From Halostella salina (GTDB lineage Archaea; Halobacteriota; Halobacteria; Halobacteriales; Natronoarchaeaceae): a stretch of 64,000 nucleotides of DNA. The translations under genes and the position numbers were made by a program. The notes under the pieces were generated by a model, which searched no databases, had not been told where the DNA came from, and worked only from the letters and a program-made list of their open reading frames with translations. The DNA lies in contig NZ_RCIH01000001.1 in assembly GCF_003675855.1 (NCBI RefSeq), positions 1 to 64,000 on the forward strand, read 5' to 3'. Every line of letters starts with the position of its first letter. Position 1 is the stretch's first letter. Below, piece by piece: positions 4,332 through 42,125 of this stretch.

Positions 4332-4724
4332 GTGAAGTACAACCTCGAAACCGGGTCGCACACGGTCTATGCGCTCCAATATCACTTCGTGACCGTCACG
4401 AAGTACCGCACAGACCTCCTCACCGACGAGATCGCAGAACGCGTCGGGGAGATTGCCAGCGATGTCTCAGAGGACTTCGGCGTGAACATCCAGAACGTCA
4501 ACGGCGGTTCCGACCACGTTCATATCTTGTTCACGGCGAAGCCAACGACCGACCTCACCAAGTTCATCAACTCGCTCAAAGGCGTCACGTCCCGCAAGAT
4601 CCGTGACGAGAATCCCGAGGTTCGGCAGGCGCTCGACAAGGGGTTCTGGCAACCGGGGTACTTCCTCGCCACCACTGGCTAGGTAAGCATCGACGTGCTG
4701 ATGGAGTACGTGGAGGACCAGTAG
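4332..4724 (+). pseudogene. tnpA: IS200-type Y1 HUH transposase TnpA with premature stop
   Basis: The reading frame shows a REP/IS200-type fold. The HUH motif is DHVHIL (about residues 60-65) and the catalytic tyrosine region is GFWQPGYFLATTG (about 103-116). An in-frame TAG at 4680-4682 interrupts the frame. Beyond it the same frame continues VSIDVLMEYVEDQ to a second TAG at 4722-4724, which is the normal C-terminal helix of the family. Loss of that helix would remove part of the trans active site. The start is GTG 4332, with a TATA-like GGTATATAAAA just upstream. Confidence 0.8.
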
Positions 4725-7041: not shown

Positions 7042-8289
7042 TCAGTCGCCAGCAACAGGCTGGTGACTCTCACCGTTCAACGTCCCACCATTCACACGCA
7101 CGTCTACTTGTGCGTCTCCGCTCCCCGACTTGGGCGAGGAACGGAGTTTGTGTTGTCGCATCCGAGCGTACCGCACGCCAATATTCTTTGCGGCGTTGTA
7201 ATCCGCGTTCACTTCATACCCACACTTCTGGCACTCGAACTGTTCACCGTGGCGGTTGCCGTCGTGTGTAAAGCCACAGTCCGTCCGAGAACAGCGTTGA
7301 GATGTGTGGTTCGGCTCGACCGTTTCCACGGAGACACCTTCCTCAGGTGCCTTGTAGGAGACGTACTCGTACAGGCGTCGGAACGCCCAGACGTGGTGCC
7401 ACTTCGCGTGTGGAAGCCGCTCTCGAATGTCGCTCAAGTCCTCGAACGCGATTACGTCGCAGTCGTGTTCGACAGCTTCCGAGACGAGTTCGTTGGCGAT
7501 CGTGTGGATGTACTGTTTGCGCTAGGCTTCTTCACGCTTTCCGAGGCGAAGCAGCGCGTTGTGTGCGGCCTGCGTGCCGCGTTGTTGTATACCACCACGC
7601 CGCTTCTCGAACTCACGACACCAGTGGTCGTAGTCGTCCCCCTGCCAAAACGTGCCGGTTGAGGACACAGCGAGGCTGTTAACGCCGAGGTCGATACCGA
7701 GGACCGTTTGGTTGGAGTGCCCGGTATCTTCCGAAACCTCATCGTCACTGTCTGTCCGCCGCGTCGAAATGTTGAGGTAGAACTCGTCAGTGGCCGCGTC
7801 GTACCGAAGCGTACTCTCGCGGAACTCGTAGTTCTCGGAGAGTACGTATTGCTCGTAGGGCGTCGGACTGTCTGCCGGGAGAACGAACGACGGTTCGACT
7901 CGGCCCTCAACAGTTGCCAGCGACACCTTGTTCCGGTAGAACGTCGCGCTTCGCGTGTCGTAGTCCATCGTTTCAGCGGTGAACGTCGGTTGAGAGACGC
8001 GCTGTCCCTTTTTCCACCGTTCGACACACGCTTTGACGGCTTCGACAGCGCGTTTGATAGCGGCTTGGACAAGTTGTGCTTGTAGGTCCGTCTCCTCCCG
8101 AAGTTCGGAATAGAGCGCGTCACGAACCTCTCGCTTGTTGGTCTCACACTCAGTGTAGGAGGTGTCGGACCAACAGTAGTCGGCGGTTCGGTTCGCGCAG
8201 TACAGGTATTGCTCTGCGGTTCGGTGGAGTGCGTCGCGTTGCTCGTCGGAAACAGCGAGTTTCACGACGGCGGTTCGACGCACGCCCAT
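7042..8289 (-). pseudogene. tnpB: TnpB (IS1341 type) interrupted by one amber codon
   Basis: The 5' part (from ATG 8289, MGVRRTAVVKL) runs to a TAG at 7522-7524. The same frame continues at once with [16 protein letters not shown] to the normal end. The RuvC residues fall on both sides of the stop: Asp in LGIDLGVNSLAVS before it, Glu in [12 protein letters not shown] and Asp in [12 protein letters not shown] after it. The zinc ribbon (CSRTDCGF...CQKCGY) also lies after it. A single substitution would restore a full protein of about 415 residues. Without suppression the nuclease is dead. The upstream extension of the frame to 8484 lies over the element end and is not coding. Confidence 0.85.
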
Positions 8290-31516: not shown

Positions 31517-32773
31517 TTAGGGTTTGCAGTCTCCCTGTTCTCTCGGTGTGAACCATCCGCTCTCGCGGTCGAACAGGAAGACTCCGGGCTGGGCCAACCA
31601 GCCGTTACTCATATCCTCGGTTGGGGGACTCTGAGTTATCTTTCGTCGGATGTTCACCGCACCGTTCACGTCCGCATTCATCGTCGTCTCGCACGACGAA
31701 CAGACGTACAACCCACGCTCCACGCGGTTACTCTCTCGAATCTGCCCGCAACGCGAACACGTCTTCGAGGTGTTCTCCTCGTCTACACGGTCAACAAGGA
31801 TGCCGTATTTTTCGGCCTTGTATTCAAGCAATCGAGTGAATCGATCGAACTCCCACCCGTGCAACTTCTTGTTCCCCGACCGGCCCCAGTTCCGCGAATC
31901 ACCGTGCTCGTCTTCGCGGATGTCGCTGAGGTCGCCAACCGCGATCTTCTCCACACTTTCTTCGACACACCGTTGTACGATGTGTTTCGAGAGAGTGTGG
32001 AGGAAATGGTCTTTGCGCCGGGAGAGTTTTCGACGAGCCTTCCGCGCACGGTTCGACGGGCCGTTCTCGCCTTCAGTCTGGTACTCCTCACGAGTGAAGT
32101 AGTGCTTGTCCTCTTTCAGTACGTTCCCCGGATACAACTCCGAGGGGCCGTCCTCGTAGTCGATGGCGAGGTAGTTGCTGATCCCGAGGTCAATGCCCGC
32201 CGTCGTGTCGCCGGGCGCATCCTCGACTGGAATTTCTTTCTTGCAGACGAGGTGGAGTTCCCACTCGTCGCCGTTCCGGACGGCACGCACCTGTTGGATG
32301 TTCTCCACCTGCACGTCCGGCCGAGTTTCGTATTCCGCGAGGATGAAGTCCGACCGCCCGTCTTTCAGGTTCCACCCTTTCGAGAGGCGGACACGGTTGT
32401 GTTTGGCGTCGTGTCTGATGCCTTTCTGCTTCCACGTCACGGTGGAGCGCGGGTGTCGGTCGCCACGTTTCCGGTAGCCCGGTGGGTTGTTGCCGTCGTC
32501 GGAGTTGTACCAGCCGGTGAACGCCTCAGCAAGCTCTTCGAGAACTCGCTGACTTGACTGCGAATGCAGGTCACTGTAGCGTTCGTGGTCTTTCAACTCC
32601 GACTTCAGTTCGGCTTCATCGGGTATCTCGCCGTCGTCATCCCACCGCTGTTGGATGTAGTAGCGTCCGACGTTCCACAGCTTGGATGCCGAGAACCCGC
32701 ACTGGTCGAGGTCGTCACGAACCTGCTGGTGGTTCGTGATACGTGCGACGTAGGTGCGGGTCGTCTCCAGCAT
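31517..32773 (-). CDS. tnpB: TnpB RNA-guided nuclease homologue with atypical RuvC-II
   Basis: The 418-residue protein is open from end to end. RuvC-I Asp is in TTAGIDLGISN (about D195), the third motif is TMNADVNGAVNI (about D368), and the zinc ribbon is CSRCGQIR...CSSC (about 339-361). The second motif reads EKIAVGDLSDIRED, with Gly (about 280) where the other three TnpBs in this window have Glu (VMEDL, AFEDL, AVEDL). Either the nuclease is impaired or a nearby Glu (287 or 289) takes over, as in TnpB groups with a rearranged catalytic Glu. It is the only intact stand-alone TnpB here besides that at 37191. Confidence 0.88.
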   Translation of the reverse strand: MLETTRTYVARITNHQQVRDDLDQCGFSASKLWNVGRYYIQQRWDDDGEIPDEAELKSELKDHERYSDLHSQSSQRVLEELAEAFTGWYNSDDGNNPPGYRKRGDRHPRSTVTWKQKGIRHDAKHNRVRLSKGWNLKDGRSDFILAEYETRPDVQVENIQQVRAVRNGDEWELHLVCKKEIPVEDAPGDTTAGIDLGISNYLAIDYEDGPSELYPGNVLKEDKHYFTREEYQTEGENGPSNRARKARRKLSRRKDHFLHTLSKHIVQRCVEESVEKIAVGDLSDIREDEHGDSRNWGRSGNKKLHGWEFDRFTRLLEYKAEKYGILVDRVDEENTSKTCSRCGQIRESNRVERGLYVCSSCETTMNADVNGAVNIRRKITQSPPTEDMSNGWLAQPGVFLFDRESGWFTPREQGDCKP

Positions 32774-33030
32774 CGTACTGCTTCCATAACTAGTTATGAA
32801 TAAGAGAATATTAAAGACTATGTTTGACGTGGAATATCCGGGCGACTGTTTGAGTGTGGTAAATCACCCAGTTGTCGGCTTCATCCCACGGCTAAAGCCG
32901 TGGGTTTTCGCCTCGCACTTTCGATAACACTGTAGAGCGACACATCACCGTTCGGGAGATTTATGCGATACTCCGCGAAGGGAGATGTACTCGCCGCCGT
33001 CCGCCGCGTCGGTAGGTGACCCACGTTGCA

Positions 33031-36000
33031 ATGTCAAAACGGAACTCACCACCCAACTCACCCGAGCAGTATCGAGACGTTCTCCGCGACCCTGACCGAG
33101 TCCCATCGTCCGACCCGTCTGAAGTGACCGACGACGATTCCACAGACGTGTCCGACCAGCCACCAGCCACGGACGAGGCGACGCCGACCGACGCAGAGAC
33201 TGTGGACGACACGGACCAGTACATCCGGGTGATTCCGACGGACGCTGCCGTCTCCCCAAGCACGGTCGTCACACACCTGAAGCGACTGCACGCGCTCGCG
33301 ACGAACGAGACCGACGCCGGCGGCCTTCGTCGGTTCTTCGGCGCTGTTGACCCGGAGACGATAGAATGTCTGCTCGTTGCAGACGGCGCTGCGGACTCGC
33401 CGGTCTCGTATTACTTCGGGATCTCTGATCCTGCTCGGCTTGACGCGCTCGAAGGGATCCTCGCTGGGCTCTTTCCGGACACGTACGAACTGCGCCGTGA
33501 CAACCGCATCGCTACCGCGATTCCTGGCCTTTTGGGCTTCTCTGATGCCGAGGACACCGCAAATCCCGACCCCAGCCCCGCCACTGCGGACGGAAAACAC
33601 GACGGGACGATCGAGCCGCCCGAACGGACACAAACGGCAGTCGAATTCCAGGCTTCGCTCGAACGGCGGGCGGACTGGCAGACGCAGTTAACGTCGTTCG
33701 AGACGGTGGGCGAGACCGAGGAGGGGCGGATTCCGCTCGCGAGCGTCGTCGAGACCATGGCCAGCCATTCGGGGACGATGGTGTATCAGACGCTCCTCCG
33801 GCCGAAGTCGGACTGGACCCCCGCGGCCGAACAGCGCCGCGAGGCACTCCGGACGTTCCGTGACACCTACCGTGATCAGTTGAGTTCTGCCGTGTTCGGG
33901 TCGCCGGACCTTGACGACGAGGACGTTCGTCTCTCCGATACTGACGAAGCCCGGCGCGAGGAGATCGCTGCCCGGGAGACGGCCCATTGCTTCGAACTCA
34001 CCGCTCGCGCGGTTGCAGTCTCTCAGGGTGCTACTTCCCAGTCACTCGATGCCAGTGCCCTTGAAACGGTGCTGTCGCCGGTCAGCGGGCAGCACCACAG
34101 GATTCGATCCCGTGTCTCAACCGACGAGAATGCACGCGCCGTCGCCGAAGCGATCCGGATGCGGACGGTTTCCCCGCACTCGGGGTCACTTCGGTCACGC
34201 CTGCCCGGCATGCGAACTCGGACCGACGCGATCGTCACCGACCCGAGCGAGGTCGGCAACTTCGCGCTTCTCGATGGCAGCAAGCTGACCACGGACGCGA
34301 GACGTGCCCTCGCTGGCCCCCCGACCGAACGCACGGCCATCCCGCGGCCGCCGGGCAGTGAACTCACGCCTTATCGGACGGAGGGGATGACGCTCGGCGT
34401 CCCGCTCTCGGAGAACGGGACTGCGAGTGCCTCGCCCGTTTCGTTGCCCCCGGAACTGCAGGCGTTACATCTCGCGTGGTTCGGCAAAACAGGGTCGGGA
34501 AAGAGCATCGCGCTGGTGAACGCCATACTCGACAATCACGCCGCCTCAGACGGGGCGACAATTCTGGTCGACCGGAAGGGAGACGGCATGCCCGAGACGT
34601 ACATGCGAGCTCACAAGCGCCGCTACGGCTCGCTCGACGACGTGTATTACTTCGACTGTACGAAGCTCCTGCCCGCGATCTCGTTTTTCGACGTTCGGGA
34701 TCAGCTGGCGGCGGGCATCAGCCGGACGACGGCGGTCGCCGACGTGGTCGACCACCACATCGAGGTCTTACAGGCGCTCATGGGTCGCGAACAGTTCGAG
34801 CGGGCGGTCCGCTCGCCCGACATCATCCGCTATCTCGTGAAGGCGCTGTTCGACCCGGTCCACGGCTCGGACGCGTACACGTACGACGACCTGCTGGCTG
34901 CCACGGACCGGATGCGAACCACGCGTGACCCGCCGACGGTGAGCGACCCGAACCTCGACGCGATGCTGGCTGGCGTCACCACGGGTGACCAGCGCTCCTA
35001 CGACGCGGTCATGAAAGGTGTCTCGAACCGCATCGAGAAGGTCCCCGTCGACGACCGCCTGGCACAGCTGTTCAATCACGTCCCTCGCGGTGACGATCCC
35101 AGCTTCGACCTCCGGCGGCTGCTCGATGCGGACGTCGTCATCGTCTTCGACACCGGCGGACTCCGAACCGAGAGCCAGCGGGCGATCACGCTTGTGTTGC
35201 TCTCACAGCTCTTTACGGCGCTCAAGCGGCGGGACACGGAGGCACGCGGACACGACTTCGAACGGGTAGCGGATCTGGAAGGGAGGGACACCGATACGGA
35301 CGGCGACGCGGATCTCTCACTCGTGAACCTCGTCGTCGAGGAAGCCGCGGGCGTCGCCACGACCGGCCTGATGGCCGACCTGCTGGCACAGTCCCGGAGC
35401 TTCGGCCTCTCGGTGACGCTTGCGATGCAGTTCCCCGGGCAGCTCCGAGAGCGCGACCCGCAGGCGTACGCCGAACTGCTGAACAACGTCTCGACGGTCG
35501 TCACGGGCAACGTCGCCGTCGACCGCGACCTGGCCGAACGGCTGGCGACTGCGGACATCGACGCCGCGGAGATGGGCACACGACTGCGAGCGGTCAGACG
35601 CGGCCAGTGGCTCGTGAGCCTGCCCGCGGCCTTCGGCGAACCCGAACCCCGGCCGTTTCTGGTGGAGTCGGTTCCGCTCCCGCCCGGTCATCCGGAGGGT
35701 GCGGATCCCTACTCGTCGGCAGACGAGCGAGCGTTCGAGGCGGCGCTCACCGTCGTCGAGAGCCGGACGAAACTTGAGTGTGGTATCGACGTTACCGGCC
35801 CGACTCGCAACGTGGCGACTGGGTCGGGGACTGAGTCCACCACAGCGACGGCTGGCGACCAGTCCACGGCGCGTGCTCCCGCCGACAGTCGGGTTGACGG
35901 TGCCGATACCGAGCCGCCGGTCGCCGCTCCGAGCAACTCGACGCTGCCGTACACGAAACGCTTCCCCGGCTGTCTCGAATACGACCGGGCGGCCCACGCC

Positions 36001-36891
36001 ATCTGCTGTGGGGCCTGTGAACGGCGATACGACGCGACACTGGAGGGGCTCGTCTGGGCGGTCGAATGCTGTCACTCCCTGGATACCGTCGACCGTGACG
36101 ACATCCCGATCCTCACCTCGAACGTGACGCTCACGCCCGGCGAACGAACCGACCGCGGCCTCACCGGCCGCAAACCGTACTTCTTGCAGGCGGTCTATGC
36201 TGCCCAACACGGCCAGTACGACGCCGATCTGGAGTACGACCTCGTCGCCGACAGCATGGTGCGACTGCAGGAGTACGTCGGCATCGACGACGAGGCAGTC
36301 CAGGAACTCATCGACGACGGCCTGCTCTCACAGGACGGCAACTACCCCCACCGGCTGTACACGGTCACGCCTGAGGGCAGAGACGCGATGGGCATCAGCC
36401 ACCGTGAGGGGATCGCGTACGGCGACGGCAAGGGCGACCTGAGCGAGTCGAGCCTGCACGTCCTGATGGTCGAAGTCGGCCGGCGCTACATCGAGCAGGC
36501 GTTCGCCGAGGACGAGCACTCGGACGTGGTTGAGGCCGTCTCGTACTACGAGGTCGGCGAACACCGCCTCGACGCCGCGGGCATCGACGAGCACGGCAAC
36601 GTGATCGTCACGCTCGAAGCCGAACGCATGAACAACGACCGGGCTCGGGCGGTCCCCGACGACTACGACAAGATGGCCACGCTGGCACCCGAGGAAGCCA
36701 TCTGGATCGTCAGGAACCGCGACGCCGCCCACGATATCCTCGAGGCACTGAACGACCCGCTCGATGGCCCGCCACGCGTCGAGAAGACGTACTCCAGGAA
36801 CAGCCCGCCACAGCGATTTACCATCGACACGCACGGATTGACCGATATTCACACGGTACAGTACGTCCGGGACTCGTTGCTGTCCAAGTAG
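33031..36891 (+). CDS. VirD4/HerA-like conjugation ATPase
   Basis: This 1286-residue protein is the largest in the window. Walker A is WFGKTGSGKSIALVNA (about 484-499) and Walker B is SLVNLVVEEAAG (about 760-771). LSVTLAMQFPGQLRERD and VSTVVTGNVAVD match VirD4/TraG/TraD-type coupling proteins. The N-terminal about 400 residues form a helical lead-in. After residue 930 lies a Pro/Thr linker, then a zinc-finger-like CCGACERRYD ... VECC segment (about 990-1020), a winged-helix-like part and a C-terminal domain. It likely pumps DNA during conjugative transfer. A GTG at 33016 is an alternative start. Confidence 0.82.
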   Translation: MSKRNSPPNSPEQYRDVLRDPDRVPSSDPSEVTDDDSTDVSDQPPATDEATPTDAETVDDTDQYIRVIPTDAAVSPSTVVTHLKRLHALATNETDAGGLRRFFGAVDPETIECLLVADGAADSPVSYYFGISDPARLDALEGILAGLFPDTYELRRDNRIATAIPGLLGFSDAEDTANPDPSPATADGKHDGTIEPPERTQTAVEFQASLERRADWQTQLTSFETVGETEEGRIPLASVVETMASHSGTMVYQTLLRPKSDWTPAAEQRREALRTFRDTYRDQLSSAVFGSPDLDDEDVRLSDTDEARREEIAARETAHCFELTARAVAVSQGATSQSLDASALETVLSPVSGQHHRIRSRVSTDENARAVAEAIRMRTVSPHSGSLRSRLPGMRTRTDAIVTDPSEVGNFALLDGSKLTTDARRALAGPPTERTAIPRPPGSELTPYRTEGMTLGVPLSENGTASASPVSLPPELQALHLAWFGKTGSGKSIALVNAILDNHAASDGATILVDRKGDGMPETYMRAHKRRYGSLDDVYYFDCTKLLPAISFFDVRDQLAAGISRTTAVADVVDHHIEVLQALMGREQFERAVRSPDIIRYLVKALFDPVHGSDAYTYDDLLAATDRMRTTRDPPTVSDPNLDAMLAGVTTGDQRSYDAVMKGVSNRIEKVPVDDRLAQLFNHVPRGDDPSFDLRRLLDADVVIVFDTGGLRTESQRAITLVLLSQLFTALKRRDTEARGHDFERVADLEGRDTDTDGDADLSLVNLVVEEAAGVATTGLMADLLAQSRSFGLSVTLAMQFPGQLRERDPQAYAELLNNVSTVVTGNVAVDRDLAERLATADIDAAEMGTRLRAVRRGQWLVSLPAAFGEPEPRPFLVESVPLPPGHPEGADPYSSADERAFEAALTVVESRTKLECGIDVTGPTRNVATGSGTESTTATAGDQSTARAPADSRVDGADTEPPVAAPSNSTLPYTKRFPGCLEYDRAAHAICCGACERRYDATLEGLVWAVECCHSLDTVDRDDIPILTSNVTLTPGERTDRGLTGRKPYFLQAVYAAQHGQYDADLEYDLVADSMVRLQEYVGIDDEAVQELIDDGLLSQDGNYPHRLYTVTPEGRDAMGISHREGIAYGDGKGDLSESSLHVLMVEVGRRYIEQAFAEDEHSDVVEAVSYYEVGEHRLDAAGIDEHGNVIVTLEAERMNNDRARAVPDDYDKMATLAPEEAIWIVRNRDAAHDILEALNDPLDGPPRVEKTYSRNSPPQRFTIDTHGLTDIHTVQYVRDSLLSK

Positions 36892-37050
36892 AACTACTAT
36901 CGCAATCTACAGGTGGTACGAGGCGAGTGCCTCGGGGCTTGACCCCGAGGGTGAAGCCGACAGTGGCCGACCAGCCGCCGGGTTGTCTCTCCCGGCCCAC
37001 AGGCTCACGGTATCGAAACGTTTACTTCGAGCGGATCAGAATAAGTGTGT

Positions 37051-37185
37051 ATGGATCAGACAGAGATGGAATGTTATCCGACTGTCCGTGACCGGGGACA
37101 GGTCACGATTCCCGAAGATGTGCGCGAACCGCTCGGTATCGAACCGGGCGACCGAATCAAACTCACTGTCGAACGACTGGACTAA
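37051..37185 (+). CDS. Mini AbrB/SpoVT-type DNA-binding protein inside a TnpB element
   Basis: This 44-residue ORF is a near-minimal swapped-hairpin AbrB domain: TVRDRGQVTIPEDVREPLGI, then EPGDRIKLTVERL. The GQVTIP and LGIEPGD motifs match those of the MazE-type antitoxin at 6506. It sits 5 nt upstream of tnpB on the same strand, so it is probably co-transcribed and may repress the element's promoter. It has no acidic C-terminal toxin-binding tail, so it is not a typical antitoxin. It is short enough to be missed by gene callers. Confidence 0.72.
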   Translation: MDQTEMECYPTVRDRGQVTIPEDVREPLGIEPGDRIKLTVERLD

Positions 37186-37190
37186 CTCGC

Positions 37191-38423
37191 ATGGACGTAA
37201 CGCTTCGCTGTCGTGCATATCCCGACGAGGAAACTGCCAGCGAAGCGTGGCGTCACATCGAAATCCCTCGGCAGATGCGGAACCACGCCATCCGCGACTA
37301 CTACTCACACGACTATGGAAACCGGCCAACCGCCTACGACCAGCACCGCAAACTCACCGACTGGAAACAGCGGTGGCCGCTCTTTTCGGAAGTCTCGGCA
37401 CACGCCGCTCAACAGACCGTTTCGGAGATTCACAAGAACGTCGAGACGCAGAAGGGGCGGCGGGAAAACGGCCACAAGACAGGGCAGTTGAAGTGGCAGG
37501 GAAGCGGCGAACGTCGGTCAGTCGCGTATCAGTCCGAAGGCTTCGACGTGAATCACACCACGGGCCAAGACGGATACGCAACACTCCGACTCTCGAAAAT
37601 CGGGTACATCCCGATTCGAGCGCACCGAGAGCTTCCCGCGACAGAGAACATCAAGCGCGTCGTGTTGAAGAAGGAGCGAACCGGCGACTGGTTCGTTTGT
37701 CTCGTCACGGAACGCCCGGACGAGAACCTTCCGAAAAAGCCCGACCCCAGTACGCTCAACCCTGCCGACTGCGTGGGTGTAGACCTCGGGATTCTCTCGT
37801 ACATCCACACCAGCGACGATACGGCGGTGGATATGCTCGACCTGTCCGACGAGTACGACCGCTACGGGCGCGAACAACGGAAACTCGACCGGAAAGAACA
37901 CGGGTCGAACAACTGGGAGAAACAACGACAGACCGTCACCAGGGCGAAGCGGCAAGTCAAACGGAAAGTGCTGGACTATCAGCACAAACTTACGACGTGG
38001 CTGGTCCGAGAGTACGATTTGGTGGCCGTCGAGGATTTGGACGTAAAGCCGATGCTGGAAACCAGCCAGAACGCCAAGAACAAGCAGGACGCCGCATGGT
38101 CACGGTTTCTGGATCTCTTGGAGTACAAAGCCGACCTGCATGGGACTCACGTCGTTCGAGTCGAACCAGCCGGGACAACCAAGGAGTGTTCGGAGTGCGG
38201 TGTGGAAACGTCGAAACCACTCTGGATTCGAGAACATTCCTGTCCGGCGTGCGGTCACACCGAGGACAGGGACCTAAACGCGGCGAAGAACATCCTTTCT
38301 CGCGGTCGCTCACAGATAGGGGCGGGACGCTCCGAATCAACGCCTGTGCAGACTGCGCTCCCTACGGGAACCCGCTCGGTTCCTGCAAAGCGCGTCGTGG
38401 AAGCAGGAAGCCCCGAGGCTTGA
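37191..38423 (+). CDS. tnpB: TnpB RNA-guided nuclease
   Basis: The 410-residue protein keeps all catalytic residues: D198 in CVGVDLGILSY, E281 in LVAVEDLDVKP and D361 in DRDLNAAKNIL. Its zinc ribbon CSECGVET...CPACGH (about 333-355) is complete. It should be an active omega-RNA-guided nuclease if expressed. The stop codon lies inside the right-end hairpin, a compact layout typical of this family. The preceding AbrB-like gene is likely its regulator. Confidence 0.92.
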   Translation: MDVTLRCRAYPDEETASEAWRHIEIPRQMRNHAIRDYYSHDYGNRPTAYDQHRKLTDWKQRWPLFSEVSAHAAQQTVSEIHKNVETQKGRRENGHKTGQLKWQGSGERRSVAYQSEGFDVNHTTGQDGYATLRLSKIGYIPIRAHRELPATENIKRVVLKKERTGDWFVCLVTERPDENLPKKPDPSTLNPADCVGVDLGILSYIHTSDDTAVDMLDLSDEYDRYGREQRKLDRKEHGSNNWEKQRQTVTRAKRQVKRKVLDYQHKLTTWLVREYDLVAVEDLDVKPMLETSQNAKNKQDAAWSRFLDLLEYKADLHGTHVVRVEPAGTTKECSECGVETSKPLWIREHSCPACGHTEDRDLNAAKNILSRGRSQIGAGRSESTPVQTALPTGTRSVPAKRVVEAGSPEA

Positions 38424-38549
38424 CCTCGGGGTGTGTTCACATCTCGAATGTTCTAGGCTCTTCTATTGCTGGGAAACCGATCGACTTCACGGGCCAGTTC
38501 CCCGATAGTCCCATCAGTCGAGCGAATGATCTCGTCGACACCGATGCGA

Positions 38550-40790: not shown

Positions 40791-42074
40791 TTACCGGCGG
40801 CTGATCACCCGTCGGAGGACGTTCCACACTCGTGACTGGCGTCGTCCGCTCGACTGGTCGGCTTCGAGTTCGTCACACCGGTCGCGTGCGGCCTGTCGCT
40901 CCCTCGCGAGCCGTTCGTTCTGCCGTTCGAGTTCGGTGAGACGTGCTTCTAATTCCGCTATCGTTTCCAGATGCGCTGCGTTTCGTTCCTGGAGGTCGAT
41001 GAGTGACGCCTCCCCCGCGGTCACATCACCGCCGATACCACTGGACTCGTCCGGTGGCTCACTGGCGTTCGTCGAATCGGGTTGGGGCTCCGACTCAGAC
41101 TGGGATCGACGAGCGTCTGTCTCCGCTCTCTCGCCTTGGGTCCCCGACTTCTGCCGTCCTGCCGGCTGGTAGTACTCGCTGGTGCCCGAGATCGCGCGTT
41201 CGACGGTCTTCTCGCCGTAGGTCGACCCGTCGCTGAAGTGCACGTCGTCCCACTTCGTACGGTGCAGTCCAGAACTCGTGAACAGGCGGTTCATCCGGGT
41301 CGCGTCCCCACCGGTCCAGAAGGCAAGCAACGAACACAGCGCCATGTCGGCCTCGGAGTGGCTGTCGTAGCCGCTCGTGTCGCCGCGCCACAGTCGATCG
41401 AACTTCGCGCCGTTTTTCGCCGCCTGAGCCCGTTCAAGCAGGGCCGCATCGGAGAGAGTCACTGCTGTCGATGGCTGTGGCTGTGCTGGTGACGTCGACT
41501 CGGGGTCGACGTTTGTCTCTTCGTCATCGGGCGCGATATGGTCCGTGTACACCGCCTCGAGTTCGCCGTCTCGCGCCTCGATGGATTCGGGCGTCCCCGC
41601 GACGTGGTCGCCGGTGACGGTGAAAAACCGTGCATCCTCGTATATCTCGACGCCCCCGCGTCGGTTTCGCTCCCCCGGGAGCGTCCCCCGGAGGAGGACG
41701 TGATACCCCGTTCCGGAGGGGCTGACTTCGGTGTAGGACGCAAGCGTCGAAATCACGGTCTTTGCCCACGCCTCGGGCCGACCGGTGTCGGAGTCACGAC
41801 AGCTATCGAGGTCGACGCCGACGAACGGGTCAGCGTCGGTGAACACGAATCCCAGGCCGTCTGCGATATCGGTTTCGAGGGCTGTCCGTGCGCTCTGGTA
41901 TGTCCCCCAGGTTTCGGGGTCAGTTGCCGAGGCGTACTGGCCGGTCGCGGGATCGATCGGAATCTTGGTCTCGGTGCCGTCGCGGGGCTGTGTACGCCAG
42001 CAGAGCCACTGGTCTCGGTCTCGCAGCACTTCGGGAATCGGTTCGGACGGGGAGGCTGGCTGTGTCGAGGTCAT
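40791..42074 (-). CDS. Phage NrS-1-type primase-polymerase (AEP)
   Basis: The 427-residue protein begins with RDRDQWLCWRTQPRDGTETKIP, an archaeo-eukaryotic-primase lead. The catalytic acidic DPFVGVDLDSCRD (about 85-97) and SPSGTGYHVLLRGTLPG with its His (about 119-135) follow. A second region carries FDRLWRGDTSGYDSHSEADM, the helicase-binding-like domain of NrS-1 polymerases. A C-terminal coiled coil (about 375-415: LIDLQERNAAHLETI, ERQNERLARERQ) follows. It probably primes replication of a plasmid or virus. ATG 42074 starts at MTSTQPAS. Confidence 0.78.
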   Translation of the reverse strand: MTSTQPASPSEPIPEVLRDRDQWLCWRTQPRDGTETKIPIDPATGQYASATDPETWGTYQSARTALETDIADGLGFVFTDADPFVGVDLDSCRDSDTGRPEAWAKTVISTLASYTEVSPSGTGYHVLLRGTLPGERNRRGGVEIYEDARFFTVTGDHVAGTPESIEARDGELEAVYTDHIAPDDEETNVDPESTSPAQPQPSTAVTLSDAALLERAQAAKNGAKFDRLWRGDTSGYDSHSEADMALCSLLAFWTGGDATRMNRLFTSSGLHRTKWDDVHFSDGSTYGEKTVERAISGTSEYYQPAGRQKSGTQGERAETDARRSQSESEPQPDSTNASEPPDESSGIGGDVTAGEASLIDLQERNAAHLETIAELEARLTELERQNERLARERQAARDRCDELEADQSSGRRQSRVWNVLRRVISRR

Positions 42075-42125
42075 TGTCGGTGGGCACACTCGCCCGTCGG
42101 GTGGGCGACAAACTGGCTTCTCCAT

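Follow-up and report, generated by a model that had tools for sequence, protein, structure and literature searches.

TnpB is the ancestor-type nuclease from which the Cas12 lineage is derived. Here, we describe a TnpB element of about 1530 bp (1.53 kb; approximately 36911-38440) in the first 64,000 nucleotides of Halostella salina contig NZ_RCIH01000001.1 (assembly GCF_003675855.1), a stretch referred to below as the window. On sequence grounds, it is an IS1341-type (tnpA-less IS200/IS605) TnpB element in which the gene for a small, dimer-type DNA-binding protein (the mini-gene) comes first, and it is bigger than the interval 37051-38423 of the original prediction, which had been read from the letters of the window alone. 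The ends of the element were placed by comparing related elements at differing sites. Its features are the following:

36906..36910, + strand: TCTAC pentanucleotide adjoining the left end, the putative insertion target or TAM side
36911..36962, + strand: left end (LE) with a subterminal hairpin, arms 36930-36937 and 36943-36950
36994..37009, + strand: LE motif GGCCCACAGGCTCACG, also found in elements with D, E or TnpA as first gene (occupant types given below)
37014..37027, + strand: likely archaeal core promoter, CGAAAC plus GTTTACTT, a promoter function suggested by its sequence
37026..37042, + strand: candidate operator, half-sites TTCGAGC (37026-37032) and TCAGAAT (37036-37042), 10 bp apart
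37051..37185, + strand: mini-gene, type A, encoding a 44-aa AbrB/SpoVT DNA-binding domain protein (ATG 37051, TAA 37185)
37186..37190, + strand: spacer of 5 nt from the mini-gene stop to the tnpB start, from the sequence and the distribution of gaps
37191..38423, + strand: tnpB, RNA-guided endonuclease of 410 aa (ATG 37191; catalytic D198, E281 and D361)
38411..38440, + strand: right end (RE), hairpin arms 38411-38418 and 38424-38431, terminus ...GTTCAC at 38440

The TnpB is full-length (NF040570, E 1.1e-73); its four zinc-finger cysteines, D198 and E281 recur in all 173 related TnpBs, and D361 in 172 of 173. Both ends have a subterminal imperfect palindrome, which together with the fixed short flank places the element with IS200/IS605. 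Upstream of the pentanucleotide, host flanks vary among the roughly 45 elements whose left ends were compared, and the LE hairpin is kept among elements at differing insertion sites. No tnpA was found within 36911-38440, and the genome has three TnpA elsewhere, one of them uninterrupted. A search for a complete empty site found none, with relatives partly matching the left flank; a plasmid search gave no match, and the viral contigs searched held only distant TnpBs. An omega-RNA presumably spans the 3' end of tnpB and continues through the RE; for this RNA the Rfam search gave no match and the fold z score was -2.05. The likely core promoter lies about 24-30 nt upstream of the mini-gene ATG, which implies a leaderless transcript.

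The original prediction had put a 44-residue AbrB-like gene 5 nt upstream of tnpB, and both genes (37051-37185 and 37191-38423) are confirmed where it placed them. The mini-protein matches PF04014 over residues 11-41 of 44 (E 8.7e-9; 35.6 bits, curated cut-off 24.7) and the AbrB model TIGR01439 (E 1.4e-9; 37.5 bits, curated cut-off 28.3), and the solved structures closest to it are those of AbrB-family regulators, the archaeal 2l66/5itm and SpoVT. It stops 3 residues past the AbrB domain, the C-terminal toxin-binding segment of MazE/PrlF being absent; no equivalog cut-off was reached in the profile search used as a test for MazE/PrlF antitoxins, and NF033496 (DUF2080) gave no match. The description of the protein as an AbrB domain lacking a toxin-binding tail is borne out by these matches. 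Its family, type A, has an invariant CYP motif ahead of the AbrB domain.

The same ORF stands directly before tnpB in dozens of other haloarchaeal TnpB elements, including about 30 of the 80 named tnpB loci searched. An even sampling of the class gave 146 haloarchaeal genomes with 11 strong matches to the mini-protein, every one directly upstream of tnpB; the next-best AbrB proteins scored far lower (<=35 bits). In 394 genomes, type A homologues were found directly before tnpB at 28 of 30 fetched loci; at the two exceptions, L291 and L295, which are contigs of the same genome, the A-type homologue is weaker, has the CYP motif and precedes a phage-related-looking gene. In the same 394 genomes, 6 of 7 loci of the type B mini-gene (the seventh at a contig edge) and all loci of type C lie directly before tnpB. 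The stop codon of most A-type copies is 3-6 nt from tnpB. Median dN/dS for type A is 0.15 in the true frame versus about 1.8 in both wrong frames, close to the value for TnpB in the same pairs (0.14); the other mini-gene types gave 0.10 (B), 0.105 (C), 0.22 (D) and 0.12 (E). The non-conservation that would have spoken against the original prediction is thus clearly not what related elements display. The mini-gene is almost certainly real and conserved, and the comparison of homologous sequences shows a protein gene under purifying selection that is almost exclusive to the slot before this kind of tnpB.

At tnpB loci that do not carry the AbrB ORF, another small ORF usually occupies the same position. 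Five small-protein types, A to E, use this slot, and TnpA is its sixth occupant. Type A is AbrB; type B is marked by 'RYTVTVPDE..EWLD'; type C is marked by 'RHLRVDLTDED' and has no clear family; type D is DUF2080 (NF033496, E 1e-18); and type E has a weak CcdA match. Profile comparison showed types B and E to be related, gave no relation of A to D or of A to E, and detected none of C to B. From their sequences, types B and E look like ribbon-helix-helix (RHH) proteins, and type C is probably RHH-like. AlphaFold models of types B and D were set aside for low confidence (pLDDT 74 and 64). The AbrB gene is therefore only one of several exchangeable slot occupants, a point overlooked in the original prediction, and the idea that this gene alone is the oddity of the element was dropped after the other occupants were found.

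A tree of 173 distinct related TnpBs has three main clades. The slot is filled in 46 of the 49 TnpBs of clade I, which includes that of the window (A 30, B 11, C 4, D 1, none 3), and in 57 of the 58 of clade III (D 22, E 22, TnpA 13, none 1), or 103 of 107 for these two clades together; clade II has a slot gene in 0 of 61. One of the three empty clade I slots belongs to a 5'-truncated element, and the other two elements (L035 and L147) have a short TATA-like promoter region after the left end. Changes of occupant state on the TnpB tree number 28, compared with 94 when labels are shuffled. TnpBs with different occupants reach identities of 93.7% (E/TnpA), 92.4% (D/E), 92.2% (B/C), 91.0% (A/B) and 90.5% (D/TnpA), and in such pairs, 90-94% identical, homology restarts at the tnpB ATG. 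Slot occupants are shown by these sequence comparisons to have been exchanged many times, replacing each other and TnpA. With few exceptions, clade Ia elements have TCTAC as their left-end pentanucleotide and clade Ib elements TGTAC, irrespective of mini-gene type; target choice therefore tracks TnpB rather than the mini-protein.

Some further observations concern elements with these occupants. The motif GGCCCACAGGC(C/T)CACG, at window positions 36994-37009 between the left end and the promoter, is common to clade III elements with D, E or TnpA and clade Ia elements with A or D, whose TnpBs are only about 50% identical; it is an element-level signal. Distant DUF2080 homologues in archaea other than haloarchaea (L304, L306, L307, L312, L313, L315-L318, L320, L322 and L323) do not have tnpB as the gene immediately after them, so strict pairing with tnpB looks haloarchaeal. 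On a Halococcus dombrowskii plasmid (L327, 1881-2078), a predicted streptogramin resistance gene listed in PLSDB (vatB, 100%) overlaps an HNH ORF just past a C-type tnpB; this listing is probably a prediction artefact.

Promoters were compared over the 46 nt before the mini-gene start (-46 to -1), after removal of sequences more than 75% identical, with z scores calculated against dinucleotide-preserving shuffles; the segment, periods and tests were chosen post hoc, on sequences already inspected. A motif search over 75 nt upstream had caught the LE hairpin and the GGCCCACA motif and no promoter signal, hence the shorter segment. Direct repeats were found at periods of 10 bp for type A (z 7.8), 10 bp for type B (z 7.5), 12 bp for type C (z 5.6) and 9 bp for type E (z 6.6), and periodicity was weaker for type D, with z about 3.5 at 6 and 11 bp. 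There was no comparable signal in comparison promoters, from clade II elements (no mini-gene; z <=2.2) and TnpA elements (z 3.6 at period 5); in the segment farther upstream, the highest z was 4.7, for type B at period 13, where there is overlap with the LE hairpin. A rank test over 16 periods per sequence gave p values of 3e-6 (A), 1.4e-5 (B), 2e-4 (C) and about 0.01 (D and E). Palindrome scores in the promoters were weak for every type.

Promoter motifs trained in one TnpB clade also recognised the same mini-gene type in another, for A with an AUC of 0.91 (p 4e-5) and for B, in one direction, with an AUC of 0.99 (p 1e-5); the type B motif trained in clade Ib failed to recognise B in clade Ia (AUC 0.6-0.7). 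A type D motif trained on clade III ranked L014, the sole D-carrying element of clade I, first. A held-out test of the type A period, on two new promoters only, left it unconfirmed (p 0.25), and that of type C had L254 as its only new promoter, the other two of three being discovery loci with a shifted start. The window's own promoter has a weak repeat, its 10-bp period ranking 9 of 16; the operator candidate matches 8 of 10 positions of the post hoc consensus TNNGAWT N3 TNNGAWT and continues more weakly at 37046 and 37056. Across the family, the comparison of promoter sequences shows type-specific tandem repeats over the promoter that accompany the mini-gene type.

From the arrangement of genes and repeats, we consider the mini-protein rather likely to be an autorepressor of the mini-gene-tnpB operon. 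As a dimeric DNA-binder, it would occupy the tandem sites over its own left-end promoter and repress the shared transcript. The mini-gene would be read from leaderless mRNA, and ribosomes terminating on it would reinitiate 5 nt downstream to translate tnpB. In a new or unrepressed copy, TnpB would be made until the mini-protein builds up, after which output of the nuclease, and possibly of the omega-RNA, would be kept low. Each mini-gene module would bring its operator along, and unrelated DNA-binders could thus be swapped without change in TnpB or target site. Clade II and the two clade I elements with no mini-gene indicate that the gene is dispensable for TnpB as such. Of the suggestions in the original prediction, repression of the element or tuning of nuclease dosage gains indirect support, as type-specific repeats over the core promoter track the mini-gene type and point to repression, and coupling to an intact tnpB gains support from the spacing and conservation, from which we infer translational coupling. 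Of the 106 small-gene cases, 98 have a stop-to-start gap of -1 to +8 nt. In Haloferax volcanii, termination-reinitiation is efficient at short gaps, less so at 13 nt, and no longer occurs at 22 nt (PMC10666635). Five A-type copies (L146, L171, L172, L173 and L034) have a gap of 22 nt, versus the usual 5, which is too long for efficient reinitiation and does not fit the coupling step.

The broader proposal is an interchangeable regulatory cassette in haloarchaeal TnpB elements, in which at least five types of small DNA-binder, each with its own predicted tandem-repeat operator, are exchanged as units at the tnpA position and self-limit nuclease expression; judging from the families compared, we regard this as evenly poised between right and wrong. 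If true, TnpB elements would have on-board dosage control, possibly part of how tnpA-less elements persist and spread.

Because mini-genes and TnpA have the slot in common, a role in transposition is the main rival to autorepression, and we consider it unlikely. The small DNA-binder would here replace TnpA and aid mobilisation, for instance by flagging the left end to a TnpA acting in trans or to a host replication factor. TnpA and the small genes do share one slot and its spacing, and replace each other among TnpBs of 90-94% identity; most haloarchaeal tnpB genes are without tnpA, yet strain-specific copies occur where all tnpA are broken (PMC3119063), and the window genome itself has only its one uninterrupted TnpA. 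However, the target flank (TCTAC or TGTAC) follows the TnpB clade rather than the mini-gene type, clade II spreads without any slot gene, and the repeats sit over the core promoter, not at the cleavage ends, and are absent from TnpA elements.

The mini-gene might instead be a leader ORF only, loading ribosomes onto tnpB by termination-reinitiation while its protein has no specific role. The positions of tnpB, either right behind its own promoter (clade II, L035 and L147) or a few nt past an upstream stop codon, agree with this, but strong purifying selection on the amino-acid sequence and a slot that holds DNA-binding-type proteins or TnpA, and no arbitrary ORFs, make it quite improbable. We give just as little weight to an antitoxin-like inhibitor that binds TnpB and blocks the nuclease, as in type II toxin-antitoxin pairs. 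Although the operon order and the DNA-binding halves are antitoxin-like (MazE, CcdA and PrlF matches), and in other systems members of the DUF2080 and RHH families have been validated as antitoxins of nuclease toxins (PMC10440598), the slot proteins terminate at the DNA-binding domain and have no tail for a partner. Unrelated families stand alongside TnpBs more than 90% identical, and such swapping at nearly constant TnpB argues against a specific TnpB-binding interface. With only 44 codons, the ORF could be a chance or annotation artefact, a reading of negligible probability that is refuted by the domain match, exclusivity, spacing and dN/dS.

The element resembles several known systems and differs from each. 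Earlier work has described IS1341-type elements of haloarchaea and the puzzling lack of tnpA beside tnpB (PMC3119063); such elements likewise have an intact tnpB, subterminal hairpins at both ends, a fixed short target at the left end and no tnpA, and to these the window element adds, where tnpA would be, a gene for a small DNA-binding protein with operator-like repeats of its own. The DUF2080 transposase-associated protein (NF033496/PF09853), also a small transposase-associated gene, is type D of the same slot, and the AbrB gene of the window is unrelated to it in sequence as far as profile comparison shows. Sso7c4-type and SpoVT/AbrB proteins (2l66, 5itm and 2ro5) have the same AbrB swapped-hairpin domain of about 45 residues, but lie outside transposon operons, and the CYP motif belongs to the window's family. 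Type II toxin-antitoxin operons (MazE, CcdA and PrlF) share a small DNA-binding first gene, a nuclease second, short spacing, promoter repeats and exchangeable DNA-binding domains; in contrast, the window protein has no toxin-binding tail and the second gene encodes a TnpB-family RNA-guided DNA nuclease. TldR proteins, which are TnpB-like nuclease-dead repressors, also tie the TnpB lineage to transcription control, whereas here TnpB keeps its catalytic residues and the putative repressor is a small polypeptide encoded by its own gene. A search of open-access full text turned up no account of exchangeable genes for small DNA-binders upstream of tnpB.

The original prediction held that such genes are easily missed by annotation, which is half right: NCBI names close relatives of type A as AbrB/MazE/SpoVT family and type D as DUF2080 family transposase-associated protein, but B and C are listed as hypothetical proteins, and the plasmid gene tables, which are known to be incomplete, lack three E-type genes. 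What keeps haloarchaeal tnpA-less elements alive and their nuclease harmless is a question raised in PMC3119063, to which a swappable regulator in the tnpA slot would be a concrete and cheaply testable answer. Near-identical TnpBs under different putative regulators form a natural series, and operators are predicted for the functionally uncharacterised proteins of types B, C, D and E, some of them entirely unannotated.

The window holds other IS200/IS605 remnants, namely a TnpA with an in-frame TAG (4362-4721, +), a distant tnpB with a TAG (7171-7794, -) and a third, distant tnpB ORF (31517-32773, -); no mini-gene was found directly upstream of these three. Neighbours of the element are a VirD4/TraD/HerA-like ORF of 1291 aa (33016-36891) and an ORF with an NrS-1 polymerase HBD domain (40791-42125), which suggest an integrated plasmid or conjugative region.
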